Shown one piece after another: positions 3,297 to 31,686 of a stretch of 39,397 nucleotides of DNA. Source of the stretch: a virus; IMG/VR virus record IMGVR_UViG_3300006853_000030, positions 1 to 39,397 of that record. One strand, written 5' to 3'. Position 1 is the stretch's first letter, and every line of letters begins with the position of its first letter. Both the position numbers and the translations under genes were made by a program. The notes beneath the pieces were generated by a model. The model worked only from the letters and a program-made list of their open reading frames with translations. It searched no databases and was not told the DNA's origin.

Positions 3297-3923
3297 CTAT
3301 CCCCAGGCGCCGGGCCCCAGCCTCGATGCACATTCGGTCTGACCGGCGGGCGTTGAGGGGTCGATGCCGTAACAGGACCCGGAGACGCTCGGATTCCAGG
3401 GCGACACCTCGTAGAAGTGGCCCGCGTCCAGTTGGTAGAAGCCGATGCAGCCGCGCGGGATGCCGGTAAGTGGGTCGGCGCACCCCTTGGCGTTGTACGC
3501 GTCCCACCGGCAGCCTGACTCACCGCGCGCGACGTCTTCGGGGATGATCGGATTGGCACATTGACCGTCGCCGGTGGAGCTCGAGAATGTCGGGGGCGCG
3601 CCCGGCGCGCTCGACGCGACGGCGGCCTGGCGGTCGGCCTCGGCCTGGGCTTCGGCTTCGGCTTCGGCTTCGGCGGCCTGGCGGTCGGCCTCGAGGTGCG
3701 CTTGGACCCTGGCGTCGAGGGCCTCTTGGAAGCCGACGAAGGTCCAGGCGGCGCCGGCGGTGAGGTCGGGGACCGTGTCGGCACGGTTGATGGCCGAGGC
3801 CGAAACCGCGCCTTCGGTGGAGTCGATCGGCCCTGGGTGGGGGACGCTCGCCACCGCAATCGTCATGGAAACGACGATGGCGACGAGCACGAGGATGGCG
3901 GTGACGATGGGGTGACGGCGCAT
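3297..3923 (-). CDS. Membrane-anchored lytic transglycosylase-like protein
   Basis: 208 residues with GGAGG six bases before the ATG. Residues ~7-27 form one hydrophobic segment (signal anchor or signal peptide), followed by an Ala/Glu-rich helical stretch (~75-105, EAEAEAEAQAEAD) that may act as a linker or coiled coil. The C-terminal part contains RGESGCRWDAYN and GCIGFYQLDAGHF, matching the catalytic-Glu and GxxQL pattern of SLT/Rpf-like transglycosylases, with six Cys that could form disulfides. It would cleave peptidoglycan glycan strands outside the membrane, during lysis or DNA entry. It is far from the amidase, which is unusual for a single lysis cassette. The fold assignment is from motifs only. 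Confidence 0.65.
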   Translation of the reverse strand: MRRHPIVTAILVLVAIVVSMTIAVASVPHPGPIDSTEGAVSASAINRADTVPDLTAGAAWTFVGFQEALDARVQAHLEADRQAAEAEAEAEAQAEADRQAAVASSAPGAPPTFSSSTGDGQCANPIIPEDVARGESGCRWDAYNAKGCADPLTGIPRGCIGFYQLDAGHFYEVSPWNPSVSGSCYGIDPSTPAGQTECASRLGPGAWG

Positions 3924-3955
3924 GGGGGACCTCCTGGCCGAGGGATGGGACGGCG

Positions 3956-3974
3956 CGCGCGCCTGGGGCGCGCG
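3956..3974 (-). terminator. Short GC hairpin before the transglycosylase-like gene
   Basis: CGCGCGCC and GGCGCGCG pair perfectly (8 bp) around a 3-nt loop in the 88-bp gap between the HicA-like gene and the transglycosylase-like gene. No T-run follows. It could end or attenuate transcription of the non-structural operon, but in DNA this GC-rich a chance hairpin is possible. Confidence 0.35.
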
Positions 3975-4011
3975 GGCGGGTGTAGCGACGATCCGGTGTA
4001 GCCGAGGTGGG

Positions 4012-5865: not shown

Positions 5866-7602
5866 TCAGAGGACGGCGCGGCCGGCCTCGGTGATGGAAT
5901 AGAGCTTGCGGGTGCCTGCCTTCGTCTCGGCCACGGCGCCGAGGTCGAGGAGCGTCTTGCGGGCCCGGGCAACGGTCGACGAACCGACGCCGGCGCTCTT
6001 CTCCCAGAGGCCGTAGGCGACACCGTCGCCAGTGTCGATCTCGGAGAGGGCCCGGAGACACTTGCGAGGGCCAGCGGGGAGGTTCTCGAGGAGGACCTCG
6101 ACGGGTTGACCGCCAGCACGCGCGGGGACGAGCACCACGGAGCCGGTGTCTTCCACCTCGCGGATACCGAAGCGACGCTCACCCCCGAGAGCGGCGTTCT
6201 TCTGCTTGGTGGGCGTGAGGGTGACGGCACCGTCGACGTCCTTGACCTCAAGCGCCGTGTCCATGGCCCCCTCGAGAGCGGTGGAGCCACGGATACCCTC
6301 GCCGCTCTTGGGCGTGTGGTGGACGGCAAGCACGGTCGCGTGGGTGGCCTCACGGAGCCGCTCGAGGTTCGCGACGACGTAGCCGGTGTCCTTCGCGCTG
6401 TTCTCCTCGGCGCCGATGATGCACCGGGCGAACGTGTCGAGCACGACGAGTACGGGCTCGAGCGTGGCGGCGTACGCAATGAACGCCGCGGCGCTCTCGT
6501 CGTTGTAGAGGTTCGGGGCGCCCAGCAGCCAGTGGAGGTCCCGGAAGATGGGCTCGGCGTCGTGGACCTGGGCGCGGCCGAGCCACGCCTTGTACCGGGG
6601 ACCCATGCCGCTCGCGCCCTCGGCGACGACGTAGAGCACCGGACCTTGGCGGACCTCGGCGCCATGCCACCATGATCCCGAAGCGACGGAGAGCGCCCAA
6701 TCCAGGGTGAAGAGCGACTTACCGGCGGACGGGGCGCCGTACACCACGGCGACGGAGTCGAGGTCGAGGATGCCGTCGATGAGTGGGACGGGCGGAGGGA
6801 GCGATCCGATGGCGTCGCCAACGATGACGGACGCCTTGAGCCGCTCGAAGATGGCCTCGTTGTAGGTCCCGGCGGGTTTCGTGACGTCCGCCGATGGAGG
6901 CCGGCCCGCTTCGAGCTCGCGCCAGAGGGCCTCGGTGGTGGCGCCGGCGTCGAGGTAGTCCGACGCGTCGCCGTGGGGTTCGAGCTCACTGAGGGTGACG
7001 ATGCGGACGTCGGTGACGGCACGGCGGATGACGCGCCCGCGGTGGTGCGCGGCGGCGATGCCTTGCTCGTCGTTGTCGGCGACGACGTAGACCGTCGCGG
7101 CGCCCCGGAAGTAGTCGGCCCAGGTGGCGGGCCAGTCCCAGCCGGCACCTTGCGCGTTCGTGGTGGTGCAGACCCCGAGCTCGGCCCGGAGACGGTCGGC
7201 GTCCTTCTCACCCTCGACGACGATGATGTCGCGGCCCTCGGTGGCCGCCGCGATGACCTCGTCGAGGTGGTATGGGACGCGTTCGACACCGTCGAGGTCG
7301 TAGACCCATCCGCCCCCTCGGCGGAGGTTGGGGCGCCGCTGGCGGAACGTCTTGCGGCCGTCGGGGGTGCGGAGGCGGAGGACTTCGTAGAGGAGGTCGC
7401 CGTCTTGGTCGACGTACTGGTAGGCGGCCTCTTGGACGGGCTTCGCCGGCGGGTGGGGAGCGCCACCGCCACCGTTGGTGTTGAAGGTGGTCTTGCCGGC
7501 GAGTTCGACGTCGCCCTCATGCGGGCGCGTCGCGCGGGGGGTGGTGTCCTCGAAGAGCTCGACGTCGCGGGCCTCGTCGTCGTCGAGGTACGGGTTCCCC
7601 AT
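5866..7602 (-). CDS. Toprim-helicase replication protein
   Basis: 578 residues. An N-terminal beta-rich segment (~60-115) leads into a Toprim domain with the catalytic Glu in VVEGEKDADRL (E130) and acidic residues in ADNDEQG (D176, D178). A RepA/DnaB-like ATPase follows: Walker A GAPSAGKS (289-296), Walker B LVVLD (to D389) and an HHTPK sensor near 428-432. The last ~70 residues look like a winged helix. Proteins of this layout prime and unwind phage or plasmid DNA. No CHC2 zinc finger is visible at the N-terminus, so primer synthesis may need another factor or be lost. It is the only clear replication enzyme here, so host polymerase is presumably used. Confidence 0.88.
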   Translation of the reverse strand: MGNPYLDDDEARDVELFEDTTPRATRPHEGDVELAGKTTFNTNGGGGAPHPPAKPVQEAAYQYVDQDGDLLYEVLRLRTPDGRKTFRQRRPNLRRGGGWVYDLDGVERVPYHLDEVIAAATEGRDIIVVEGEKDADRLRAELGVCTTTNAQGAGWDWPATWADYFRGAATVYVVADNDEQGIAAAHHRGRVIRRAVTDVRIVTLSELEPHGDASDYLDAGATTEALWRELEAGRPPSADVTKPAGTYNEAIFERLKASVIVGDAIGSLPPPVPLIDGILDLDSVAVVYGAPSAGKSLFTLDWALSVASGSWWHGAEVRQGPVLYVVAEGASGMGPRYKAWLGRAQVHDAEPIFRDLHWLLGAPNLYNDESAAAFIAYAATLEPVLVVLDTFARCIIGAEENSAKDTGYVVANLERLREATHATVLAVHHTPKSGEGIRGSTALEGAMDTALEVKDVDGAVTLTPTKQKNAALGGERRFGIREVEDTGSVVLVPARAGGQPVEVLLENLPAGPRKCLRALSEIDTGDGVAYGLWEKSAGVGSSTVARARKTLLDLGAVAETKAGTRKLYSITEAGRAVL

Positions 7603-8633: not shown

Positions 8634-8872
8634 GGTGTTGGCTCCTCTGGGTTGGCCTCGACGGGGACGTCGAGGAGGTTGCGGGCCAGTGTGGCCGCGT
8701 GGCGGTAGTTGGTCTCGCGCTCGGTCAGGCGGACTTCATAGCGGTCGTCGTCGCGCCAAGGCAGAGCCTCGCGGGTGGCCTTCGCTGTGTCCGCCGCGGC
8801 TTCGAGCTTGGAGACGAGCTCGACGGCCTCGTCTGCCCAACGCCGGCGGTCGTGTCGGTTACGGCGTGCCAT
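8630..8872 (-). CDS. Hypothetical helical protein
   Basis: 80 residues from MARRNRHDRR. The N-terminus is very basic, and the rest is helical with a mixed charged surface. The start lies 14 nt inside the end of the RuvC-like gene; alternative upstream starts would run antiparallel-like low-complexity sequence through that gene and were rejected. A nucleic-acid-binding role is possible from the basic start but not shown. Confidence 0.6.
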   Translation of the reverse strand: MARRNRHDRRRWADEAVELVSKLEAAADTAKATREALPWRDDDRYEVRLTERETNYRHAATLARNLLDVPVEANPEEPTP

Positions 8873-9407
8873 CGGTGTCCTCCTCAAGGTCGGGCCAGGC
8901 GACGGACTCGAGCGCCTTGACGCGGTGCTCGAGGCCGTTGCCGAGGCCGTCGTCATAGTGGTCGGCGCCCATGGCTCGGAGCCAGTAGGCGTCGGCCTCG
9001 TCGAAGTTGCCGGGGCGAGGAGCGCCTCTCGGGAGGTCGGCCTCGGCGGCGTCCGCCATGGCTTCCTTCCGGGCGTTGCCCTTGCCGGTGGCGTAGAGCT
9101 TGAGCGTGTTCGGGCGGACGCCGACCCAGGGGATGCCGAGGAGCTCGAGGCGGGTGCGGATGGGGCCTTGGAGCTCGCCGGCGACGATGAGGGAGTTGAT
9201 GCCGAGAGCGCGGGGGGCGTAATCCTCGACAACGACGACGTCGGGGCGGGCGCGCGCGAGCTCGACGTAGACGCGCTCGAGGAGTTGGGCGTGGCGGAGG
9301 TAGCCGATGGTCTTGGGCTTCCCATGCCGGATGGTGGCGAAGGTGCCGTCGGGAAGCGCGACGCCGGTGGCGGAGAGCGAGACGTCGAGGCCGAGAATTC
9401 GGGTCAT
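8859..9407 (-). CDS. RuvC-like Holliday junction resolvase
   Basis: 182 residues with the RNase H-like RuvC pattern: GLDVSLSATGVA with D8, VVVVEDYAP with E61, a basic/Asn stretch KGNARKEA (109-115) and a C-terminal acidic motif NFDEADAYWL (D136, E137, D139). These residues would bind the catalytic metal ions. RuvC-like phage enzymes cut Holliday or branched DNA made by replication and recombination, clearing it before packaging. The length is close to RuvC (about 170). It is coupled to both neighbours by short overlaps in the non-structural operon. Confidence 0.82.
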   Translation of the reverse strand: MTRILGLDVSLSATGVALPDGTFATIRHGKPKTIGYLRHAQLLERVYVELARARPDVVVVEDYAPRALGINSLIVAGELQGPIRTRLELLGIPWVGVRPNTLKLYATGKGNARKEAMADAAEADLPRGAPRPGNFDEADAYWLRAMGADHYDDGLGNGLEHRVKALESVAWPDLEEDTDGTP

Positions 9408-10864: not shown

Positions 10865-11052
10865 GGCCGGAGCCCTCGGAAGTTGGGCCAGGACGTGCAA
10901 CGCCGCGGGGTGCGGCCGTCGAGGTCCCAGGCGATGGGCTTGGCCGGCCGGCCGGCGTCGGTGACGGTGGCGACGAGGACCGCGGGCCTCTCGAATTCCT
11001 CGCCGGATTCGTCGCCGTAGATGGCGGTGACCCAGATGGCGGCGGTGGTCAC
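10861..11052 (-). CDS. Hypothetical protein
   Basis: 63 residues, mainly beta-type (AIWVTAIYGDE, PAVLVATVTDAG). The C-terminus is basic (RTPRRCTSW). It overlaps the gp3-like gene by 4 nt at its start and the next gene by 4 nt at its end, so it is likely coupled to gp3-like translation. Function unknown. Confidence 0.55.
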   Translation of the reverse strand: MTTAAIWVTAIYGDESGEEFERPAVLVATVTDAGRPAKPIAWDLDGRTPRRCTSWPNFRGLRP

Positions 11053-12572
11053 GACGAGAGCCGTTCGTAGACGGCGGCGTTGAGCTCCGGGTCGCCGATG
11101 AGGCCGTCGAGGTTGCCGGGGAGCTCGTTGGCCTTGGCGTCGGGGCGAAGCTGGGCGGCGGTCTTGACGGCGTCGCCGATCTTGAGGCGGTGCTCCGCGA
11201 GGAACCTCCGCCAGTCCTCCGCGGTCGCGGGGACGGCCGAGGCGGGCTCCGTGGCCGTCTGCGTCGCCGGGACGTCGGCGGGCCTCTCCGTGCCCTCGAC
11301 GTCGATGACGACGTCGGGGGCCTCCTCGGCGGCCGGAGAGGGGGCCTCTGTGCCGGCGAGGGTCCCGGAGGTCGAGATACCTTCGGACGTCGACTCGAAG
11401 ACCCAGAAGCCGGGGGTGGGGCTCGCGAGCGTGGCCTTGCCGCGGGCGAGGAGGACGATGGCCGCCATGGCCTGGGACTTCTCGGTGGGGGTGAGGTCCT
11501 TACCGCTCTGGGTGCGGCCGCCGGTGAGGGCGACCAGGAGGCCGTGGCGGAGGACGTCGTTGCCGACGGCGGGGACGTCGCGGCATCGCATCGCGAAGTG
11601 CTGCGCCCAGGAGAGCGTGGCTTCGTCGCCGGCGGGGTCAGTTTCGCGCTCCGGTGGGACGTAGGGCTCCGGGTCGGGTGCGGCCGCCATCGGCGGATGG
11701 GCAGCGGGTTCGACCGGCGCGGAGCTCGAACCGAACGCGGCGTCGACGCTCGGGGCGGGCGCCGTGGACGGCGCGGGGGCTGGGAGCTCGGGGACTCCGC
11801 CGGTGTCGAGCGCGGGGCGCGCGCCCGGCGCGAGCGCTCCGGCGCTTCCGGGCACGACGGGGAGCCCGTCGGGGCGGGTGAAGCCGAGGGCGTTGAGGGT
11901 CTCGCCGAGGTTGCCGCGGAAGCCGAGGACCGGCACGGCGAAGCGCCGGGTGAGGACTCCGCCCTTGCCGTCGGGCCGCTTGACGGAGCGAGCCTCGAGG
12001 GCAAGTCGACCGGGGATCAGGACCCCTTGGCGGGTCGCGAGCTCACAGAGCGCCGCGGCGCCGCCGAGCTCGAAGGCGGCGTTGTAGCCGTGGGACTCGA
12101 GCCGCCAGACGCCGAGGTCCGAGATAGCCGGAAGCATGACGGCGAGGCGCGTGGTGGGGCGACACGCGGTGCCCTTGCCGGCCTCCTCCTGGCGTTCGGC
12201 GATCGACGCGGGACACTGACAGTCGCGGTCGGTGAGGACCTGACGGATGCCGTCGCATCGACGCTGGCATCCTCCGCCGGTCCAGAGCTCGTACCACTCG
12301 GAGAGAACCTCGCCCGGGGGGATGACAACGTCGAGAGCTTCGCTCTCCACGAAGAGTTCCCATTGGGCTCCGTCGTTGGGGTGTTCCCAGGCCTTGACCT
12401 CGCCGCCGTACGCCGCGGCGCACTCGTCGAGGAGGTGACGCCACTTCGTGGTGAGGCGGAACTTGGCGAGCTTGCGGGGGCGGGCCTTGCCGCCCCCGGC
12501 GGGGCGTTCGAGGGTGCCCATGCGGATGCGGCCGAGCTCGCGGAAGCGCTCTTGAATGTCGCGGATGGGCAT
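11049..12572 (-). CDS. phiC31 gp3-like (recombination directionality factor family) protein with long C-terminal extension
   Basis: 507 residues with AGGAG eight bases before the ATG. The opening MPIRDIQERFRELGRIRMGT and the block WYELWTGGGCQRRCDG...TRLAVMLP (residues ~93-148) match the phiC31 gp3-like family. Cys at 102, 106, 118, 120 and 137 probably bind zinc. phiC31 gp3 is the factor that makes the serine integrase excise the prophage. Residues ~270-330 and ~410-450 are Pro/Ala/Glu-rich linkers, and the two segments after them are helical and unassigned; gp3 itself is about half this length. No integrase is present, so the role here may be different, for example in replication or DNA binding. 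Confidence 0.72.
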   Translation of the reverse strand: MPIRDIQERFRELGRIRMGTLERPAGGGKARPRKLAKFRLTTKWRHLLDECAAAYGGEVKAWEHPNDGAQWELFVESEALDVVIPPGEVLSEWYELWTGGGCQRRCDGIRQVLTDRDCQCPASIAERQEEAGKGTACRPTTRLAVMLPAISDLGVWRLESHGYNAAFELGGAAALCELATRQGVLIPGRLALEARSVKRPDGKGGVLTRRFAVPVLGFRGNLGETLNALGFTRPDGLPVVPGSAGALAPGARPALDTGGVPELPAPAPSTAPAPSVDAAFGSSSAPVEPAAHPPMAAAPDPEPYVPPERETDPAGDEATLSWAQHFAMRCRDVPAVGNDVLRHGLLVALTGGRTQSGKDLTPTEKSQAMAAIVLLARGKATLASPTPGFWVFESTSEGISTSGTLAGTEAPSPAAEEAPDVVIDVEGTERPADVPATQTATEPASAVPATAEDWRRFLAEHRLKIGDAVKTAAQLRPDAKANELPGNLDGLIGDPELNAAVYERLSS

Positions 12573-13259: not shown

Positions 13260-14165
13260 CTAGTCCTCCTCGGTGGGGTCGGTCTCGAAGATGTGCTCGA
13301 TGGCATCGCCAAGGACGTCCTTGGAGGTCTCGTCGACCCAGCGGAACACCTCCCGGGCGTACAGGAACGCCTTGAAGATGGGCCGCTCGGCAAGCGGGAG
13401 TGCCGGGTCGTCCAGGCGCACCGGAACGAGCCGCCAGCCACGCGGCCCAAGTTGGAGAACTGCCGCGCCCGAGAGCGCCGGGAGGGCCGCTTCGGAGCCG
13501 TCGGGAAGCCCCATGAATTCGGCGTTGCCGTAGGCGTTGAGTTGCAGCGCGGCCTCGGGGTAGACGCCTTTCTCCTCCACGACGTCGCCGCCGGTCTTGT
13601 AGTCGATGAGGAGCCGCACGAAGGGCGCGTCGGCGGTCGTGATCGCGCGTCGACGCCAGTCGTCGGGGATGCGGACGTTGAGCGCCGCGAGCGCCTCGAT
13701 GGTGATGTCGACGATGGCGTCGAGGGTGCCGGCGTACCGCTGGGTCCGGTGGTACACCTCGGCCTCGGTGGCGACGTAGCTGGGTTGCAGCGCCCGCACG
13801 AAGTCGAGGAACGAAGCGACGTAGGCGCGCTCTTCGCGGGTGTCGAAGGTGGGCATGGGCCGCTTGAGGGCGTAGGCCTCGGCCGCTTCGTGGACGGTGG
13901 TGCCGACGTCGGCCCGGTCGCGGGTGTAGCGAAAGGGCTCTTGCTTGAGGTAGTCCACGGCGCGGCCGCGGGGCATGGCGAGCCAGACCGAGGCGTCGTC
14001 GTAGGCGAATTCGGCGACGCGCTTGGCGGCCCACCACTTGAGTGCGTTCTTGGGGATGGCGCCGTCGATGATGGTGGTGACGGACCAGTAGCGCTCGGAC
14101 TCACCCCAGACGTAGAAGCGGCCGCCACCGCGGGAGCGGCGGGCGTGGCGCGGGTTACGTGCCAT
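13260..14165 (-). CDS. Cas4/RecB-like PD-(D/E)XK exonuclease
   Basis: 301 residues. Motifs of the RecB-family nuclease are in order: a conserved His in TTVHEAAEA (H92), EAEVYHRTQRYAGTLDAIVDI with D149, LLIDYKTGG with D188 and K190, and the QLNAYG segment (Q208, Y212). These form the PD-(D/E)XK active site. A Cas4-type iron-sulfur Cys cluster is absent. Phage relatives usually process DNA ends for recombination or replication. It overlaps the preceding gene by 11 nt. No CRISPR genes are nearby, so a Cas4 adaptation role is not supported. Confidence 0.82.
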   Translation of the reverse strand: MARNPRHARRSRGGGRFYVWGESERYWSVTTIIDGAIPKNALKWWAAKRVAEFAYDDASVWLAMPRGRAVDYLKQEPFRYTRDRADVGTTVHEAAEAYALKRPMPTFDTREERAYVASFLDFVRALQPSYVATEAEVYHRTQRYAGTLDAIVDITIEALAALNVRIPDDWRRRAITTADAPFVRLLIDYKTGGDVVEEKGVYPEAALQLNAYGNAEFMGLPDGSEAALPALSGAAVLQLGPRGWRLVPVRLDDPALPLAERPIFKAFLYAREVFRWVDETSKDVLGDAIEHIFETDPTEED

Positions 14166-15786: not shown

Positions 15787-16149
15787 CTAGCGGTCGTGGG
15801 CGATGGCGTCCCAGAGGTCCGAGAGAGCGCGGTACGCGGAGCGGAGGCGGGCGGGCCATGCGCGGGTGGGGAGTCGCTCGTCAACGGGGAGGCCGGTGGC
15901 CTCGGCCTCGACGACGAAGGCGACCCAGCCGGGGTTGAGGACGTCGTCGCGGCGGTAGCGCTCGAGCGAGCCGGGAACGAGTCGGAGGTGGTCGCGCTCG
16001 AGGGCGGCGAGGAGCTCGGCCTCGAGCATGAGGTAGTGCCAGTTGGCGGGGAGAGCCGTGTCCGAGAGGGCGGCCAAGGTGACACCGGCCCAGCGGCCGT
16101 AGTGACGGGTGACGATGAGGTTGGAGTAGGTCTCCGTCTGGTCGCTCAT
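15787..16149 (-). CDS. Hypothetical protein
   Basis: 120 residues, mixed fold, with several Trp (RWAGV, NWHYLMLEAELL, PGWVAFVVEAEA, DLWDAI). It overlaps the upstream gene by one base (TGATG). It is the last gene before the second promoter. No family was recognised. Confidence 0.65.
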   Translation of the reverse strand: MSDQTETYSNLIVTRHYGRWAGVTLAALSDTALPANWHYLMLEAELLAALERDHLRLVPGSLERYRRDDVLNPGWVAFVVEAEATGLPVDERLPTRAWPARLRSAYRALSDLWDAIAHDR

Positions 16150-16607
16150 CAGCTGGCCTCACGCCAGACCGAGCGGTAGGCGTCGATCGCAGCGTCCGCG
16201 AGCGGGTCGCCACCGGCGTCGAGCGCGACGAGGACGGTGGCGTTGGTCCTCTGGAAACCGTCGGTGACGTCACCTTGAGCGAGGCGGACGGCCCGGTCGA
16301 TGAGGTCCTCGTCGTCGCCGGCGGTGTAGAGCTCCGGCGCTACGGCTGGGTCCACGCTGGCCCCGACCACGGTCTCGAGACGATCCGGGACGGGCTGGCC
16401 GTCAAGGTCGACGTCGGCGAGGCGGTCGATGCGGAGCGGTCGGGCATCGGCCGGGAGGTCCAGGTCCCGCGCCCGGTTGAGCGCGGCGGCGGCCTCTTCG
16501 AGGGTCATGCCGTAGGCGGTGGCGAAGTCCTGTGCAGCCTGGGCGTCGCGGGCGTCGAGGAAGGCGGCCTCCTCGGCGTTGCGGCGCTCGAGGTCATCGG
16601 TCGTCAT
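16149..16607 (-). CDS. Hypothetical acidic protein
   Basis: 152 residues from MTTDDLER, overlapping the end of the Toprim gene by 14 nt. It is strongly acidic and helical, with a helical start (EEAAFLDARDAQAAQDFATAYG). The upstream extension in the same frame is Arg/Pro-rich and overlaps the Toprim gene, so it was rejected. No family was recognised. Confidence 0.62.
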   Translation of the reverse strand: MTTDDLERRNAEEAAFLDARDAQAAQDFATAYGMTLEEAAAALNRARDLDLPADARPLRIDRLADVDLDGQPVPDRLETVVGASVDPAVAPELYTAGDDEDLIDRAVRLAQGDVTDGFQRTNATVLVALDAGGDPLADAAIDAYRSVWREAS

Positions 16608-17532
16608 CGGAGTCCTCCTCGTCGAGCCATGCGGCGATCTGGGCGTAGCGGTCGGATATGCGGGCAACGGTCTGACGCTCTTCGGTCTCACGGTCGAGCG
16701 CGTCTTCGAGGAGGTCCTCGTCAGTCAGGTCGGCGACGTTCGTGCGGATGAGCTCGGCGAGGGTGTTGGGGTCGAGGGCGTCGAGCTCCCACGATTCGTT
16801 CCCATAGAGGCGCTGGTAACCCTCGAAGCGGGAGTCGGTCACCTTGGCCGGGTTCGGGGGCGGGGCGTAGTCCTCAACTTGGCCCATTGTCAGAGCGATC
16901 CGTCGGAGGTCGAAGGCGCCGGCGTCGCCGGAGTAGTCGAGGAAGAGCGCGAGCCTGTCGGCGATGTCTCGCGACATATCAATCCCGCTGGGGTCGTGGT
17001 CGCCGAGGTGGAGAATGGTGACGGTCTGGCCGGCAGCGATGTACCGGCGGAGACGCATGGCGGCGGCGTGCATTTCGCTTTGCGAGGTGTAGCCGCGACA
17101 GGAGAAGTAGGCGACGTCGAGCTCGCGGCAGATGGGGTCGATGACGCCGACGAGCGCGTCCTTTTCGATCCAGACCTCAACGCGCTGGGGCTGAGCCCCC
17201 CAGAGGTCGCGGTTGTAGGCGCGCGCCGCTGCGTCAATGACGTCGGCAGGGTCATCCCAATGAGCGCGACTCTCGAGGTTGCGCGTCCGGTCCTCGAGGT
17301 AACGCCAGTCGAGCTCGCCGGCGAGCCGAGCGTCGTTGATGATGGAGCCGAGACGCTTGTATTCGCTCTGTCGGTTAGGGATGAGGTCCCGAGCGACGAA
17401 CTGGTAATACAACTGGCGCAGCGTGAGGGTGAAGCCCTGGGCGTCGTACTCGGCACAGATGGTCTCGGCCTGGCGGATGACCTCGAGGGTCTTGGGAGCG
17501 AAGTCGCGGGCGAGATAGCAGATGCGGGCCAT
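16594..17532 (-). CDS. Stand-alone Spo11/topoisomerase VI A-like Toprim protein
   Basis: 312 residues from MARICYLARD. FTLTLRQLYYQFVARD (Y42, Y43) corresponds to the R-x-x-Y-Y segment of the winged-helix domain that carries the catalytic Tyr of Spo11/TopoVI-A. A Toprim domain follows: VWIEKDA with E123, and HLGDHDPSG with D178 and D180. An acidic C-terminus ends DEEDSDDD. Order and motifs match a reduced TopoVI A subunit; stand-alone relatives in mobile elements have been called Mini-A. No B-subunit (GHKL ATPase) gene is seen. Such a protein might break or nick DNA in replication or recombination. Tyr assignment needs alignment; a nuclease-type Toprim protein is the alternative. Confidence 0.75.
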   Translation of the reverse strand: MARICYLARDFAPKTLEVIRQAETICAEYDAQGFTLTLRQLYYQFVARDLIPNRQSEYKRLGSIINDARLAGELDWRYLEDRTRNLESRAHWDDPADVIDAAARAYNRDLWGAQPQRVEVWIEKDALVGVIDPICRELDVAYFSCRGYTSQSEMHAAAMRLRRYIAAGQTVTILHLGDHDPSGIDMSRDIADRLALFLDYSGDAGAFDLRRIALTMGQVEDYAPPPNPAKVTDSRFEGYQRLYGNESWELDALDPNTLAELIRTNVADLTDEDLLEDALDRETEERQTVARISDRYAQIAAWLDEEDSDDDR

Positions 17533-17534
17533 GG

Positions 17535-17744
17535 CTAGCGGAGGACCTCCGTGGCGACCGCGAGCGTCAGAGCGACGGCACCCGCGATGGGGGCGAACAG
17601 TGCAGACGCGACCCAGCCGGGGAGTCGCCGACGGCGGGATCGGCGCGGGAGTCCAAGCTCCACGCGGAGGCGCCCGACGGAGGCGATGAGCGCCGCGCCC
17701 AGGACGCCGAGGACGGCGAGGGTGGCGAGGGTGGGCAGGATCAT
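17535..17744 (-). CDS. Small membrane protein with two spans
   Basis: 69 residues. Hydrophobic segments at ~2-23 (ILPTLATLAVLGVLGAALI) and ~46-66 (SALFAPIAGAVALTLAVA) flank a very basic loop (RRSRRRR). The topology would place the loop in the cytoplasm. Early expression from the nearby promoter argues against a holin; a takeover or membrane-association function is possible but unproven. Confidence 0.62.
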   Translation of the reverse strand: MILPTLATLAVLGVLGAALIASVGRLRVELGLPRRSRRRRLPGWVASALFAPIAGAVALTLAVATEVLR

Positions 17745-17781
17745 GGCAGGAGTCCTCTCCCAACGAGCGCCGGAAGCACCG

Positions 17782-17982
17782 TCATCGGGAAACGCGTGTG
17801 ACGGAGGCGATGAGCCGGTCGACGGCCTGACGGGCGACGACGAGCCCAAGGGGGCCGCGAGTGCGCCGGCGGGCCTCGCGGTACTCGCGCCTCATGGCGT
17901 TCCGCCACGCGATGCTCATGGGGATTTCCCGGTCCTCGATGAGGAAGGGGCGGACGTCGGGGCGTTTGGGGCTTGCCGCCAT
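17782..17982 (-). CDS. Small basic protein, first gene of the early operon
   Basis: 66 residues from MAASPKRPD, chosen because GGAGG sits eight bases upstream; an earlier ATG in the same frame lies within the promoter region. The sequence is Arg-rich and helical (RNAMRREYREARRRTRG). It is the first gene after the promoter at 18021-18049. Small basic early proteins often bind nucleic acid or host factors, but no family is recognised. Confidence 0.65.
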   Translation of the reverse strand: MAASPKRPDVRPFLIEDREIPMSIAWRNAMRREYREARRRTRGPLGLVVARQAVDRLIASVTRVSR

Positions 17983-18020
17983 GACGGGGACCTCCGGTGG
18001 TAGCGAGCTGGGCAAGAGCA

Positions 18021-18049
18021 ACCTTACCCTACGCCTCGCCGGAGTGCAA
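18021..18049 (-). promoter_or_regulatory. Promoter for the non-structural (early) operon
   Basis: On the minus strand TTGCAC (-35, 18044-18049) is followed by a 17-bp spacer and TAAGGT (-10, 18021-18026). Transcription would start ~25 bp before the first early gene (17982). It lies exactly between the lysis genes and the early genes, where a separate transcription unit is expected. Confidence 0.72.
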
Positions 18050-18063
18050 GTCTTTCCTTGCCC

Positions 18064-18405
18064 CTATCCGCCGGAGGGTGTCGTTGCGGTCGGCAGCGGG
18101 GGGACCACTCCATCCGCGCAGGTCTCCGGGTCTTGAAGCTGCGCCGCGACCACGTCCGCGATGCTGAGCGCCTCGTCACGTTGATCGAGCGGAAGCCGCA
18201 GCCCGGCGATGATGAGGCCGAGCTCACGGCCGACGAGGGCGCCCGTACACGCGTCGCGGGCGTCGGCGTCGCGGGCTTCGCCGACGTCACCGGAGACGTT
18301 CAGGAGGACACCGAGGGCCACGACGGCGATGAGGATGGCGGCGATGGCGATGGCGATGGCGGCGCGGAAGTTGCGGTCGGCCCGGCGGAGGTCGTCGCCT
18401 AGTAC
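18064..18405 (-). CDS. Membrane protein with no standard start codon
   Basis: About 113 residues from the GTA at 18405; the true start is uncertain because no ATG, GTG or TTG is available in frame between the end of the upstream gene and the hydrophobic segment. AAAGG lies just upstream. Residues ~14-36 are one membrane span (FRAAIAIAIAAILIAVVALGVLL); the rest is soluble with two Cys. A short frame opening with GTG at 18440 ends in TAG at this spot and is one base out of phase, so frameshifting, a rare start codon or a sequence error are possible. Next to the endolysin, it may be a lysis regulator or second holin. Confidence 0.55.
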   Translation of the reverse strand, partial: VLGDDLRRADRNFRAAIAIAIAAILIAVVALGVLLNVSGDVGEARDADARDACTGALVGRELGLIIAGLRLPLDQRDEALSIADVVAAQLQDPETCADGVVPPLPTATTPSGG

Positions 18406-18436
18406 CTTTGTTCTGGGGTGCGTGGGTCGGCAGGTT

Positions 18437-18826
18437 TCACGACTTGCGCTCGGCGAGGTGGTGGCGGACCTCGACGGTGACGGCCTCGGCGACCGTGGGG
18501 GCGAGGTCGGCGACGAGGTCTTGGCGGACCACCGCGACGACGGCCTCGGCGACGACGGTCGCGAATCCGTTGGTGAGGACCCCGACGCGGCCTCGGAGCT
18601 CGGCGATGGCCTCACTGCAACGGGACTCCGCCTCGGCCGCCTCGGCCTTCGCCTTCTCGCGGTACCGCTCCGCCTCTTGGCGTTCGGTCGCAAGGGACTT
18701 CTCGAGGAGCTCGGTGTAGGTGCGGACCTGCTTGCCGCGGAAGTAGGGCCACGCCGCGCCCAGCAATCCCGCGACGGTCGCGAGACCAACGAGGACCGTG
18801 ACGACAACAGCGGTAGCGCTCGGCAT
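18437..18826 (-). CDS. Membrane-anchored coiled-coil protein, lysis cassette
   Basis: 129 residues. One N-terminal membrane span (ATAVVVTVLVGLATVAGLLGAAW, ~4-26) precedes a long charged helix (~38-80, rich in Glu, Lys, Arg and Ala) that looks like a coiled coil; the C-terminal part is Val/Ala-rich helix. It starts 14 bp after the amidase gene. In phages of high-GC Gram-positives, holin and accessory membrane proteins often lie beside the endolysin, so a holin- or spanin-like lysis role is inferred. Not recognised by family. Confidence 0.6.
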   Translation of the reverse strand: MPSATAVVVTVLVGLATVAGLLGAAWPYFRGKQVRTYTELLEKSLATERQEAERYREKAKAEAAEAESRCSEAIAELRGRVGVLTNGFATVVAEAVVAVVRQDLVADLAPTVAEAVTVEVRHHLAERKS

Positions 18827-18839
18827 CGTCGACGTTCTA

Positions 18840-19847
18840 CTACGGGGTGGCGGCGTCGGCGGCGACCTTGCGGACGGCGTTCTCGGCCGCCTTCTCGATG
18901 GCGGCGAGGTCCAGCGGGCTCCCGGTGCCGAGCGGGCCGAGCTCCGCCGCGACAGCGTGCGCGATGTCGATGGCAGAGGGCGGGGTGCTGGCCCACTTCC
19001 CGGACCAGAAGAGTTGCTCCATCGTGGCGCCGTCGATGAAGTGGATGGGGATGGGGCTGGCGACGGCGACGTCGGGCCGCTTGAGGGAGTCATGCCAGAT
19101 GGCGGCGACCTCGGGGATGCCGTCGGGGTTGGGGTTCTGGTCGCCGAAGTCGTGAACGATGCGGCCGTCGAGCCAGACGATGGCGCCGTTGCCGGTCCAG
19201 CCGGTGCGGGGGCCGACGTACATTTCCATTCCCATGACGCTCCTTAGACGCGAGAGCCGCGCCAACAGATCGAGGTACTCGCGGACTTGGTCGGGGGTCG
19301 GGACGCCGGTGAGCATCGAGAGGAAGACGTCCCAGGGGAAGTCCCAGCCGGGGTCGGATCGGTAGTCGCCCTCCGGCCATGCGACGTGAGCGTCGCCGTG
19401 GCCGGTGAATCCCCATCGCTCACCGGCGCGGAGTTGGTCGCCGGTGAGGTGGACGGGCTGGATGCGCGGCTCTCGACGCATGAGGTCCTTGCAGAGCTCG
19501 GCGACGATGACGAGCTCGGCGCGCGAGTAGTCGTCGAGCCATTCGCCGCGGTCCTGGGCTGCTCTGCCGGCAAGCTCGATCTGCCAGGCGATGGCATTGC
19601 TCGGCCCTTCGCCGGCGCCGTAGCAACGCCGGTTGAGGGGGACGCAGAGGACCCCGGAGTTGGTGTCGGCGGTGAGGTGCGTTGAGGCGCCGACCGATCC
19701 GCCGGCGAAGTAGTTGGCGACGCCTTCGGCGGCGGTGAAGGTCTCTTCGGTCTCGGCAGAGTGGATCATGATGAGCGAGGGCTCATCCGGCCCGAAGGGA
19801 CCGCCGTAGTTCGCGGCCGGGACGAAGGGCAGGTCGTCGACGTTCAC
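18840..19847 (-). CDS. Endolysin, N-acetylmuramoyl-L-alanine amidase (Amidase_2/PGRP type)
   Basis: 335 residues. An N-terminal amidase domain (~20-175) shows MIHSAET with H29 and TGHGDAHVAWPEGDYRSDPGWDFPW (H150 or H154, D165), the zinc-binding and substrate pattern of type-2 amidases that cut between muramic acid and L-Ala. The GASTH segment (H57) fits the fold. The remaining ~150 residues include repeated Trp/Gly motifs (MEQLFWSGKWAST) and probably bind the cell wall. There is no signal peptide, so export would need a holin; the gene overlaps the holin candidate by 4 nt. Confidence 0.85.
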   Translation of the reverse strand: MNVDDLPFVPAANYGGPFGPDEPSLIMIHSAETEETFTAAEGVANYFAGGSVGASTHLTADTNSGVLCVPLNRRCYGAGEGPSNAIAWQIELAGRAAQDRGEWLDDYSRAELVIVAELCKDLMRREPRIQPVHLTGDQLRAGERWGFTGHGDAHVAWPEGDYRSDPGWDFPWDVFLSMLTGVPTPDQVREYLDLLARLSRLRSVMGMEMYVGPRTGWTGNGAIVWLDGRIVHDFGDQNPNPDGIPEVAAIWHDSLKRPDVAVASPIPIHFIDGATMEQLFWSGKWASTPPSAIDIAHAVAAELGPLGTGSPLDLAAIEKAAENAVRKVAADAATP

Positions 19848-28925: not shown

Positions 28926-29549
28926 CTACCGTGCGCCGGAGCGGCGGCCCGGTAGGAAAGCCTCGAGGTCGCTCTTGTCGCCGGCGCTCAGGGTGAGGCC
29001 GGCGGCGTCACCTCCGCCGAAGCCGATGCCGCGGTTGTAGCGACCTATCGACTCCGTGCGGAGGCCGGTGGGATTCGTGTATCCGCGCGCGGCGCACCGG
29101 AGGACGACGGCCTTGATGGAGCCTGGGAGCGGGTCGACGCTGACGCCGGAGTCGCCCTCGACGCCGTAGCCGTGGGTGGTCACGATTCTGTAAGTGGCGC
29201 CCTTGGTCCACCGGGCGCCGCCCGCGCGGCGGAGGATGCCGAGGCGGTGGTCGTATCCGAGCTCGACGTCGTAGTCGGCGAGCTCGATGAGGTCCTCGAA
29301 GGCGGAGTCGCCGGCGAAGCGTTGACCGATGGAGTGGACCTGCCAGACGGGGAGCTCGGGGCAGAGGAGGACGCGGCCGCCGTTGCCGATGACGTCGACG
29401 GAGTCTTCGGCGTGGTAGTCGACCTCTTGGGCGAGGTGACCGCGGACGAGGTCGGAGGCGACCTCGAGGAGGAGCTCGGCGCGGTCCTCGTCGATGGTGG
29501 TGAGGCCGAGCCAGTGGCCGAGGGTATCGGGAGCGACGAGGGGGCCCAC
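28926..29549 (-). CDS. Head-tail adaptor (HK97 gp6-like)
   Basis: 207 residues. A helical start (TLGHWLGLTTIDEDRAELLLEVASDLVRGHL) followed by a beta-rich middle with repeated Gly (GNGGRVLLCPELPVWQV) and a helical end matches phage connector adaptors that bind the portal clip. It overlaps the glycosyltransferase-fusion stop by one base and precedes the stopper gene. Confidence 0.78.
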   Translation of the reverse strand: MGPLVAPDTLGHWLGLTTIDEDRAELLLEVASDLVRGHLAQEVDYHAEDSVDVIGNGGRVLLCPELPVWQVHSIGQRFAGDSAFEDLIELADYDVELGYDHRLGILRRAGGARWTKGATYRIVTTHGYGVEGDSGVSVDPLPGSIKAVVLRCAARGYTNPTGLRTESIGRYNRGIGFGGGDAAGLTLSAGDKSDLEAFLPGRRSGAR

Positions 29550-31162
29550 TAGCCGGCGATCCTCTCGAGCGCGGCGATGAGCGTTGGGCGCGCCTTGCCC
29601 GACCGCTCCGCGGCAAGGGCGAGCCCAGCGCGGTCGGGGTCGCCACTGACCCAGGCCTCGACATCGCCGACGCGGCGCATGATGACCTCGTCGAGCTCGA
29701 GGTCGCCACTCGATGAGGTCGATGGTGGCGGGGCGGGGAGGTCTTCGAGGGCGACCGTGAGCGCTTCGAGCGCGGCCGGGACGCGAGTGGGGTGGAGGAG
29801 CGCGAGGTCGGCCAGGAAGTCGGAGCGGGCCTGGTAGGTCGCTCCTCGGTAGGCGCTGGCGGCGCGCTCGAGCTCCTCGGCGGGGATACGACCGAAGAGG
29901 CTCTTGTGGACGGCGAGGGGCAGAGCGTCGCTCTCATCGTCGGGGCGGAGGCCGAGGCGGATGGCGTCGCCGTCGCGGTAGTTGAAGTCGCCTTGGAACG
30001 TCCGATAGCGCCGGCGCTGGCCGCGCTGGCCACGCGGGACGGGGGCGAGGACGTGGACGACGAGGGCGTCGGAGACGGTCTTCGCGTCGGGCGTACAAGA
30101 GCACGCGCCCGCGCCGCAGATGGGGCAGGACACCTTGCGGGCGAAGAGGTCGGTGGTCGTCATGGCTCCGGGTGGATGGTACGCCGCGCCGGCGGCGAGG
30201 CGGCGCTCCTCGATGAGCGCCAGGATGCGCGCCTCGAGGAGGTCTTGGTCGGCGTCGGTGATCTTCTCGAGCTCGCGCGCCCGGGTGTAGGCCCTGGCGC
30301 TGGCGGCGCCGTAGACGTCGGGGTCGTCGAGGGCGTTGAGGGCGTCGACCCATCCTCGTCGGTCGGTGCGCTCGACGAAGGTGCCAGCGTCACCCAGGGC
30401 TTCGAGGAGCCCCGGCGTGGGGGCGGCGATGGTCGGGATGCCGGAGCACGCGGCTTCTACGGCGACGCGACCCCATGACTCGTAGCTCGAGGGCATGAGC
30501 AGGACGCGGGTGCGCGCGTAGACGTCGGTGGTGACGTTCGCCGTGTTCTCGATGATCTCGACGTTGCGGAGGTTCTTGGCGCGCCGACGTTCCTGGATGC
30601 CGTAGGCGCCCGCAACGCCGAGGAACTGCCGGTGGGTCTCGGTCTCGGCGAGGTCGTAGAAGACCGTCGACCCCTTGGCGTGCGTGAGGTTGACGAGCGT
30701 GACTCGGTCGCCGCCGGTGATCGATGCGCCGGCGTAGCGGGCGACGTCGACGGGCGGGCGACAGATGATGGACGGCCCAGGCCAGCGGAGCGCCTCGTTG
30801 ATCCAGACGGAGTTGGGGACGACGAGGACGTCGGGACCCGGTTGCACGCGGTGGAATTGGAGTTGTCGGTCGTTGTGGACGAGGTGAACGAGCGGCCGAC
30901 CGGCCTGGGTCGCGGTGCGGACCGCGAGCTCGGTCTTGTCGAGGTGCGTGACGATGACGTCGTGTTCGCGCGCCATGCGGTCGAGGTCGCGGCCAACAGG
31001 TCCGACGGTGACGCCGTCAAGGCGATAGCTCGGCGCGGCTGGGAAGGCGACCGTGGCGGTGTGACCGCGGGCGACGAGGCGCTCGAGGATGGCGTGGAGC
31101 ATCCACTCGGCGCCGGCGTTGTGGAGCGGCGGGTACTTGTGGACAACGGCGAGGAGTCTCAC
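29549..31162 (-). CDS. GT4-like glycosyltransferase fused to a Cys-rich head-type domain
   Basis: 537 residues in one frame. Residues 1-~325 form a GT-B glycosyltransferase: KYPPLHNAGAEWM near the start (GAE acceptor loop) and PSSYESWGRVAVEAACSG with E228 and E236, the EX7E pattern that binds nucleotide-sugar. From M334 follows a segment with CPICGAGACSC (possible zinc site), a YRTFQGDFNYRDGDAIRLG part, and a C-terminal SGDPDRAGLALAAE...LIAALERI tail, like small proteins encoded between capsid and adaptor genes in actinophages. GGAG lies only 2-3 bases before the M334 codon, so separate translation is doubtful. The enzyme may glycosylate virion proteins or be carried on the head. Confidence 0.78.
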   Translation of the reverse strand: MRLLAVVHKYPPLHNAGAEWMLHAILERLVARGHTATVAFPAAPSYRLDGVTVGPVGRDLDRMAREHDVIVTHLDKTELAVRTATQAGRPLVHLVHNDRQLQFHRVQPGPDVLVVPNSVWINEALRWPGPSIICRPPVDVARYAGASITGGDRVTLVNLTHAKGSTVFYDLAETETHRQFLGVAGAYGIQERRRAKNLRNVEIIENTANVTTDVYARTRVLLMPSSYESWGRVAVEAACSGIPTIAAPTPGLLEALGDAGTFVERTDRRGWVDALNALDDPDVYGAASARAYTRARELEKITDADQDLLEARILALIEERRLAAGAAYHPPGAMTTTDLFARKVSCPICGAGACSCTPDAKTVSDALVVHVLAPVPRGQRGQRRRYRTFQGDFNYRDGDAIRLGLRPDDESDALPLAVHKSLFGRIPAEELERAASAYRGATYQARSDFLADLALLHPTRVPAALEALTVALEDLPAPPPSTSSSGDLELDEVIMRRVGDVEAWVSGDPDRAGLALAAERSGKARPTLIAALERIAG

Positions 31163-31686
31163 AGGGGCGCAGCGCGGACGATGATGCCGCCCAACTTGTC
31201 GAAGGCGTCGACGTCGACGACCTCGAGGTCTCGGACCGCGGCGAGCTCGTCGACGGTCCAGACGGAGCGGTGGCGCTCGGTGGGCCAGCCCTGGTCGGCC
31301 TCGGGGTTCTGGAAAAAGTCGCGGGGTGTCGAGACCACGACTCGGCCCGGGATTCGTCGTAGGAGTTCCTCGCCGTCGTCGTGGGTGAGGTGCTCGAGAA
31401 CGTCGACCATGAGGACGAGGTCATAGCGAGCGAGGGAGTGGTCGACGAGGTGGACGACGTCGGTGGTGTAGACGTGGTCGTAGAGCGCGCTGAGCCAGGG
31501 GAAGGACTCGAGGTAGCGGGGCTCGGCCTCGACGGCGTCGAGAAGCTCGAGGTGGCGATGGCCGTACTCGCGCAAGATGACGCCGTACTTGCCGTTGCCC
31601 GGGCCGACGTCGAGGACGCGCGCTGGCCGATGCTCGAGCGCGACGAGCGCGGTGGTGGCGAGGAGCGGGAGCGAGCTCGATGGCAT
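31159..31686 (-). CDS. SAM-dependent methyltransferase
   Basis: 175 residues with motif I VLDVGPGNGKYG (24-35), an acidic residue after strand 2 (DAVEAEPR) and motif IV LVLMVDVLEHL near 90-98, as in small class I methyltransferases acting on small molecules or sugars. It lies between the capsid gene (after a stem-loop) and the glycosyltransferase, overlapping the latter by 4 nt, so the two probably act in one pathway, for example making a methylated sugar on the virion. Substrate unknown. Confidence 0.8.
   Translation of the reverse strand: MPSSSLPLLATTALVALEHRPARVLDVGPGNGKYGVILREYGHRHLELLDAVEAEPRYLESFPWLSALYDHVYTTDVVHLVDHSLARYDLVLMVDVLEHLTHDDGEELLRRIPGRVVVSTPRDFFQNPEADQGWPTERHRSVWTVDELAAVRDLEVVDVDAFDKLGGIIVRAAPL

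Follow-up and report, generated by a model that had tools for sequence, protein, structure and literature searches.

The minus-strand gene at positions 16594–17532 of an IMG/VR virus record (the whole record, 39,397 bases with a GC content of 70%, being hereafter the window) encodes a protein of 312 amino acids that, as far as identity alone is concerned, is almost certainly a Mini-A, i.e., a homologue of the DNA cleavage core of topoisomerase VI-A (Topo VI-A) and Spo11. The Mini-A family already has its name and the window protein adds one member to it; what the present analysis contributes is the assignment of Y43 as the candidate catalytic tyrosine, the conservation of a "clasp" in the absence of a B subunit, the lack of a constant partner gene and the one-gene polymorphism of the Chivirus phages. 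Concerning function, the explanation that we prefer, and that taken as a whole has in our opinion an even chance of being correct, is that the protein represents a type IIB cleavage half lacking the B subunit, whose tyrosine-linked breaks would feed recombination or repair in an optional and conditional manner. The gene and the elements of its product are the following:

16594–17532, minus strand: Mini-A type gene, 312 amino acids plus stop, Topo VI-A/Spo11-like DNA cleavage core without B subunit
17284–17499, minus strand: predicted winged-helix (5Y-CAP-like) domain, residues 12–83, which when folded alone has a VIA match to 1d3y
16723–17208, minus strand: predicted Toprim domain, residues about 109–270, with VIA matches to Topo VI-A, JetD, MksG and Spo11
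17404–17406, minus strand: Y43, candidate catalytic tyrosine, invariant; the preceding codon (17407–17409) is that of Y42
17416–17418, minus strand: R39, putative counterpart of R102 of the Top6A clasp, with R-x3-Y spacing
17164–17166, minus strand: E123, Toprim glutamate, invariant
16993–17001, minus strand: D178-H-D180, Toprim DxD, invariant in the set of 157 proteins
16786–16788, minus strand: E249, putative counterpart of Top6A E342, motif WELDAL compared with AEQQAL/ELEAL

The family assignment follows from the match of the window protein with PHROG 6247 ("DNA topoisomerase"), which covers residues 3–305 with E = 1e-106, and from its relationship with hundreds of phage proteins, including that of Pseudomonas phage NP1, which is 48.4% identical across residues 11–266 and is the Mini-A example in a figure legend of PMC7614492. 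At least 563 relatives are present in IMG/VR, the best 80 being about 50–60% identical; tblastn detected relatives in 76 phage records and in 45 plasmid records, of which 35 are from Streptomyces, and a genome scan yielded 153 stretches from many phyla, 80 of which were kept. The phages concerned have as hosts Pseudomonas, Salmonella, Brevundimonas, Microbacterium, Flavobacterium and others, and an archaeal virus, HCIV-1, is also represented; the identity of the window protein to every annotated phage member is below 60%. No match was obtained upon comparing the window protein as a single sequence with Pfam (E up to 10), nor in the NCBIfam search and in the PDB sequence searches, and the Pfam models TP6A_N and TOP6A-Spo11_Toprim matched only weakly 7 and 2 of 76 members (best 0.014 and 0.092, respectively). 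That the gene is encoded by a virus is indicated by the presence in the window of an endolysin and of capsid-, portal- and terminase-like ORFs, the last three recognised by eye.

Passages of the reviews PMC7614492 and PMC8185306 describe the Mini-As, which occur in archaeal viruses and in phages, as truncated homologues of Top6A, and note that among the archaeal Topo VIII and Mini-A proteins none has been characterised so far. The initial annotation had held that stand-alone relatives are known and that their function is largely unexplored; in a passage of PMC11302465 Mini-A is called an ancient viral homologue. With this family the window protein shares the stand-alone nature, the size of about 300 residues, the combination of winged helix and Toprim and the viral origin, and no feature sets it apart. 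Mini-A, Topo VI and Topo VIII can reportedly be told apart by a C-terminal motif described by Takahashi et al. in 2020. Our literature search recognised no study of Mini-A activity.

The protein tree, built with 78 rows, follows the host phylum, with 18 changes for 14 groups as compared to a minimum of 13 and a shuffled mean of 43, so that the Mini-A gene has the appearance of a long-established resident rarely crossing phyla; the window row lacks a well-supported sister and its nearest rows are from Myxococcota and Actinomycetota. A single Mini-A gene is carried by each of the 50 records considered (50 of 50), and in five of them this gene appears as two pieces. In Roseobacter phage RDJL Phi 1 (L091, 6956–7905) the Mini-A match also falls into two pieces, extending over two annotated ORFs on opposite strands, so that the annotated start or frame may be wrong.

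The AlphaFold2 model of the window protein (mean pLDDT 90.6, pTM 0.81) contains the pair of winged-helix and Toprim domains, and for both domains the best VIA match is Topo VI-A. With the Toprim part, 1d3y ranks first (Z 11.4, 143 residues aligned, rmsd 3.4), followed by Top6A (Z 11.2), JetD (10.7), MksG (10.7) and Spo11 (9.4), the whole range being 9.3–11.4; with the N-terminal part folded alone, residues 72–143 of 1d3y chain A rank first (69 aligned, rmsd 2.4) with a Z of 7.8, which is middling on the tool's own scale, and in a plain Foldseek search of this part 1d3y is only at rank 49 (E 8.4). When the whole chain is submitted to Foldseek, the first three places go to Top6A chains (E 2.4e-4 to 4.5e-4); over that length their TM-scores are only about 0.3 and the rmsd is 15–17, values that could be due to the two modelled domains lying at another angle. 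Sequence identity in the structural alignments with Topo VI-A and Spo11 is about 11–17%. The fold search in BFVD was not informative, the one match at E < 0.001 being an unnamed protein of 152 residues.

Profile comparison by hhalign of a broad Mini-A profile with nine archaeal Topo VI-A sequences gave a probability of 89% (E 2e-6, residues 119–238), as opposed to 4% (E 0.003) with a narrow profile, the score rising only once distant members had joined the Mini-A profile. Furthermore, these nine Topo VI-A sequences had been picked out of 30 loci by a pattern requiring the DxDPxG and EK motifs, so that the alignment of these motifs does not constitute independent evidence. All in all, the observation contained in the initial annotation, namely a TopoVI-A/Spo11/Mini-A type protein, is borne out by translation, PHROG match, alignment with relatives, invariant residues and predicted fold, and is far from being a chance resemblance.

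Conservation was assessed in a set of 157 proteins consisting of the window protein and those of 79 of 80 virus loci and 77 of 80 genome loci, the four loci left out being those in which the gene caller missed the Mini-A gene. R39, Y43, E123, K124, D178, D180 and E249 are each present in all 157, and the invariance of the six active-site and clasp residues among them suggests that the family has been kept active. Position 42, on the other hand, is Tyr in 145 and Phe in 12 of these proteins, which makes Y43, and not Y42, the candidate nucleophile. A catalytic tyrosine had indeed been placed by the initial annotation within LRQLYYQF (residues 38–45 in the translation), but of the two tyrosines retained there as candidates Y43 alone fits; E123, D178 and D180 are found in the minus-strand translation of 16594–17532 exactly where they had been claimed to be. 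Among 21 more diverse proteins (that of the window and 20 annotated ones), Y43 and R39 are each present in 20, the exception being that of phage SPN19, for which the start has been annotated too far downstream and the longer frame reads TRQVYYQ; E123 and D178 are found in 21/21, D180 in 20/21, E249 in 18/21 and Y42 in 14/21.

According to passages of PMC13040014, Top6 of M. mazei has a tetrad formed by E202, D254, D256 and E342, its tyrosine is Y106, and R102 and E342 constitute a clasp that restrains this tyrosine, the E342Q mutant cleaving much more. The spacing R39-x3-Y43 equals that of R102-x3-Y106, and WELDAL, which contains E249, aligns with AEQQAL/ELEAL of the archaeal Topo VI-A proteins; by our reading of this motif, which lies outside the profile alignment, E249 is the likely counterpart of E342 and as such completes the acidic set with E123, D178 and D180. 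Moreover, the pairing of residues 12–83 with 72–143 of 1d3y places Y43, if ungapped, at position 103. The catalytic residues of M. jannaschii Topo VI-A are Y103, E197, D249 and D251. The window protein has in common with Topo VI-A and Spo11 the R-x3-Y, the Toprim Glu and DxD, the E249/E342-like motif and the predicted fold, and differs from them in being shorter and in having no B subunit.

Natural variants of these positions exist. Three relatives that are encoded by Streptomyces/Rubrobacter plasmids and are about 30–34% identical (L210, 2920–3846; L211, 2980–3909; L214, 2998–3831) have Gln at the position of E249, resembling in this respect the hyper-cutting E342Q mutant of Top6A, and Ala at that of K124. 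In the Mini-A of HCIV-1 (L209, 2920–3951) the second Asp of the DxD is replaced by Asn (GDFNPSG), so that the metal site may differ.

The presence of JetD and MksG among the fold neighbours (Z 10.7 each, with the Toprim fold in common) suggests an alternative in which the protein is a weapon that breaks foreign DNA, be it the host chromosome, plasmids or rival phages, in the way in which its relative, the Wadjet nuclease JetD/MksG, breaks plasmids, and the accessory one-gene cassette described below would suit this function. Yet, as stated in a passage of PMC10123090, MksG lacks the tyrosine in its 5Y-CAP domain, whereas Y43 is invariant in the Mini-A family, and neither a device for distinguishing self from non-self nor a partner gene was seen among the neighbors at 136 loci; no SMC-like partner gene was recognised beside the window Mini-A. 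We therefore regard a role as a weapon as improbable.

As to the ATPase half, the model of the Topo VI-B transducer (PF09239) matched none of 51 virus records, the window included, some of which may be fragments, under conditions in which the controls were detected; HATPase_c (PF02518) gave two weak matches, below cut-off, in 51 records, and HATPase_c_3 (PF13589) was above cut-off in one of 81 virus records, which is not the window. None of the three models matched the window record, for which the claim that no GHKL ATPase is encoded therefore holds as far as these models are concerned. Since no B subunit was found, the window protein is not filed as a topoisomerase VI. According to passages of PMC8185306 and PMC7614492, topoisomerase VIII has a type IIB core and occurs in mobile elements, and in this respect the window protein resembles it, but the GHKL ATPase part is absent, by the models tried, both from its 312 residues and from the window.

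A few records do have GHKL or GHKL-like genes close to Mini-A. The single protein above the HATPase_c_3 cut-off (637 residues; L057, 8272–10185) is encoded six genes away from Mini-A and has no match in phage records, whereas three ORFs of 471–476 residues (L058, 5123–6538; L053, 11442–12857; L066, 5814–7244), GHKL-like by eye, lie three genes after it; the two of these that were scanned, L058 and L066, have no Pfam GHKL match. The L066 protein has relatives in 65 phage records, mostly YuA-like Pseudomonas phages, none of which, among those listed, was seen in the 60 of 76 Mini-A phage records compared. These genes, together with the retention of the clasp, whose residues are responsive to the B subunit in the case of Top6 (PMC13040014), could mean that Mini-A is no cutter on its own but a DNA binder, or a cleavage half in need of a phage or host enzyme such as a host ATPase standing in for the B subunit; the rarity of the GHKL genes and the occurrence of the relatives of the L066 protein mostly in YuA-like phages leave to this possibility a very small probability. 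A GHKL gene as general partner was rejected on the basis of its frequency (1/81 virus records).

The genes of the window are predicted to lie almost all on the minus strand, and from high to low coordinates their order is terminase, portal and capsid (by eye), tail, endolysin, Mini-A, an HTH protein, exonuclease, Gp3-like protein, RuvC-like resolvase and primase-helicase. The neighbors that matter here are:

18840–19847, minus strand: endolysin/amidase, upstream of Mini-A (phrog_12609, E 5e-22)
13260–14165, minus strand: PD-(D/E)XK exonuclease, possible partner pathway (phrog_298, E 5e-38; PDDEXK_1 at 0.0081, below cut-off)
11049–12572, minus strand: Gp3-like (recombination directionality factor-like) protein (PF18897, E 8e-37)
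8859–9407, minus strand: RuvC-like Holliday junction resolvase (phrog_159, E 1e-34)
5866–7602, minus strand: primase/helicase, AAA_25 (PF13481, E 2e-38; phrog_906, phrog_239)

The small plus-strand predictions at 18133–18402 and 3561–4001 are probably spurious. Between the capsid and tail genes there are a glycosyltransferase-like ORF (29549–31162) and a methyltransferase-like ORF (31159–31686), both recognised by eye. The position of Mini-A, just after the tail and lysin genes and on their same strand, gives no support to the suggestion that it is one of the first genes behind an early promoter; a scan of 15800–19000 found no promoter-like site, a negative result that is weak because only sites of the sigma-70 type were scanned for in a genome with 70% GC. 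The 6 kb around the window gene have matches in 24 phage records, the five listed ones being matched at the Mini-A gene; the search with the window exonuclease found no relative.

Over the nonredundant loci Mini-A shares its strand with the upstream neighbor in 130 of 135 cases, this neighbor being within 30 nt in 82 of 135, and with the downstream neighbor in 127 of 133, the distance being within 30 nt in 77 of 133. The identity of these neighbors varies: after clustering all the ORFs of 80 loci plus the window and the genes within four positions of Mini-A at 136 loci, the most widespread neighbor family was found at 6 loci out of 136. The Pfam content of near genes (150 of 395) is similar to that of far genes (150 of 552), integrase (4) and PDDEXK (3) being very slightly enriched near Mini-A and helicases commoner far from it (Helicase_C, 5 far and 3 near). 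A constant partner gene was thus rejected. In the annotated phages genes for polymerase, ligase, primase or helicase often adjoin Mini-A.

In two groups of phages Mini-A is dispensable. Within the Queuovirinae, NP1 has consecutively ligase, an ORF of 51 residues, Mini-A and the Sak4 annealase, followed by a Cas4-type exonuclease, whereas in Amoyvirus R7M and Seuratvirus Seurat the ligase adjoins the Sak4-type gene and Mini-A is absent; a passage of PMC7472734 lists the topoisomerase among the Nipunavirus genes missing from MMDA13. Within Chivirus, the 419 nt to the left of the SPN19 Mini-A occur in 100 phage records and the 526 nt to its right in 98, but the gene itself occurs in six, corresponding to three phages (SPN19, 118970_sal1 and BP12C) with two records each. 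Comparison of SPN19 with KFS-SE1 shows flanks that are 98.6% (left, 419 nt) and 99.1% (right, 536 nt) identical and the absence from the latter of 894 nt, about the length of the Mini-A ORF, with the breakpoints at the ORF ends. In Chivirus Mini-A is an exact one-gene cassette, a finding that is new here, this presence/absence not having been found in print by a literature search limited to Chivirus with topoisomerase. The slot, located between a small ORF and a ThyX-like gene, has three states: it is empty in KFS-SE1, contains Mini-A in SPN19 and 118970_sal1 and, in Chi and iEPS5, a protein of 84 residues (L218, 2096–2350; L219, 2270–2524) which in the scan, covering Chi, corresponds to phrog_9722, of unknown function. 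The Mini-A gene therefore comes and goes by itself, no partner accompanying it, and phages live without it.

This ORF-sized presence or absence between near-identical flanks is what would be left by a selfish homing gene, whose product would cleave gene-less relatives at the empty site, into which the gene would then be copied. Nevertheless, such a gene would hardly be restricted to one per record, have no common insertion site and no shared neighbor family above 6/136, and give a tree that tracks the host phylum; furthermore, the flanks of SPN19 are nearer to those of the gene-less KFS-SE1 than to those of the gene-bearing 118970_sal1 (94.9% over the stretch), so that no shared co-conversion tract is seen. 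Homing has, in our judgment, hardly any likelihood.

The optional status in Chivirus and Queuovirinae also argues against an essential role in starting replication. The role of essential initiator was rejected as a general one, the relatives without the gene keeping the rest intact, so that the interpretation given by the initial annotation stands as to the TopoVI-A/Spo11/Mini-A identity, finds no support as to the early promoter and is weakened as to the start of recombination-dependent replication as an essential role, close relatives of other Mini-A phages being without the gene while keeping the rest of their replication and recombination genes. The same relatives, which replicate, weigh against the reading of Mini-A as an ATP-independent topoisomerase that cuts and reseals phage DNA, thereby relieving torsion in replication or packaging without leaving lasting breaks. 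Its cleavage core is the same as that of Topo VI, a Topo VIII relaxed DNA without ATP according to a passage of PMC7614492, and replication genes are often alongside, but neither an ATPase nor a gate domain for strand passage is present; a topoisomerase function is thus unlikely in our estimate.

The likeliest mechanism would instead be an ATP-independent, tyrosine-linked DNA break that feeds recombination. In Topo VI-A and Spo11 a groove is formed by the Toprim dimer and the DNA is attacked in trans, either tyrosine acting at the metal site of the partner subunit; to judge from the conservation, Mini-A should retain this chemistry. Two Mini-A copies would pair via their Toprim domains and each Y43 would attack one strand, with the metal held by E123, D178 and D180 and the break carrying a 5′-phosphotyrosyl end. 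The R39–E249 clasp would hold the tyrosine off the DNA until bent, supercoiled or crossed DNA opens it; the DNA itself is invoked as the opener because no ATPase partner is encoded, and its shape is the simplest trigger given the lack of both an ATPase and a constant partner. The breaks would then be taken up by phage recombination or repair, for which the exonuclease, the RuvC-like resolvase and the primase-helicase of the window may be used; since the gene is optional, this use is more probably conditional than central to the phage. Cleavage without ATP has a precedent in a Topo VIII, as recorded in a passage of PMC7614492.

The link with recombination is one of company, namely Sak4 and Cas4-type exonuclease in NP1 and exonuclease and RuvC in the window, and this association is loose, the Pfam content being similar near and far from Mini-A, and has no statistical backing. 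Exonucleases and resolvases are common in phages generally. Two further points stand against the preferred explanation: being dispensable in two phage groups, Mini-A would produce breaks that are not generally needed, and the conserved clasp would keep the enzyme closed in the absence of a B subunit. A bolder version, which we put forward tentatively and consider rather improbable, is that Mini-A is a viral Spo11, B-free, clasp-gated, triggered by DNA shape and encoded by an optional gene, whose programmed breaks would raise recombination with co-infecting relatives or prophages.

Mini-A represents a type IIB cleavage core that is widespread and is found without its ATPase, and its invariant clasp makes one ask how the enzyme is opened if the B subunit is missing. 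The pair formed by SPN19 (with the gene) and KFS-SE1 (without it) and the plasmid relatives that are naturally E249Q make function and gating, respectively, directly testable, and Mini-A bears on the possible loss of topoisomerase activity by Spo11.
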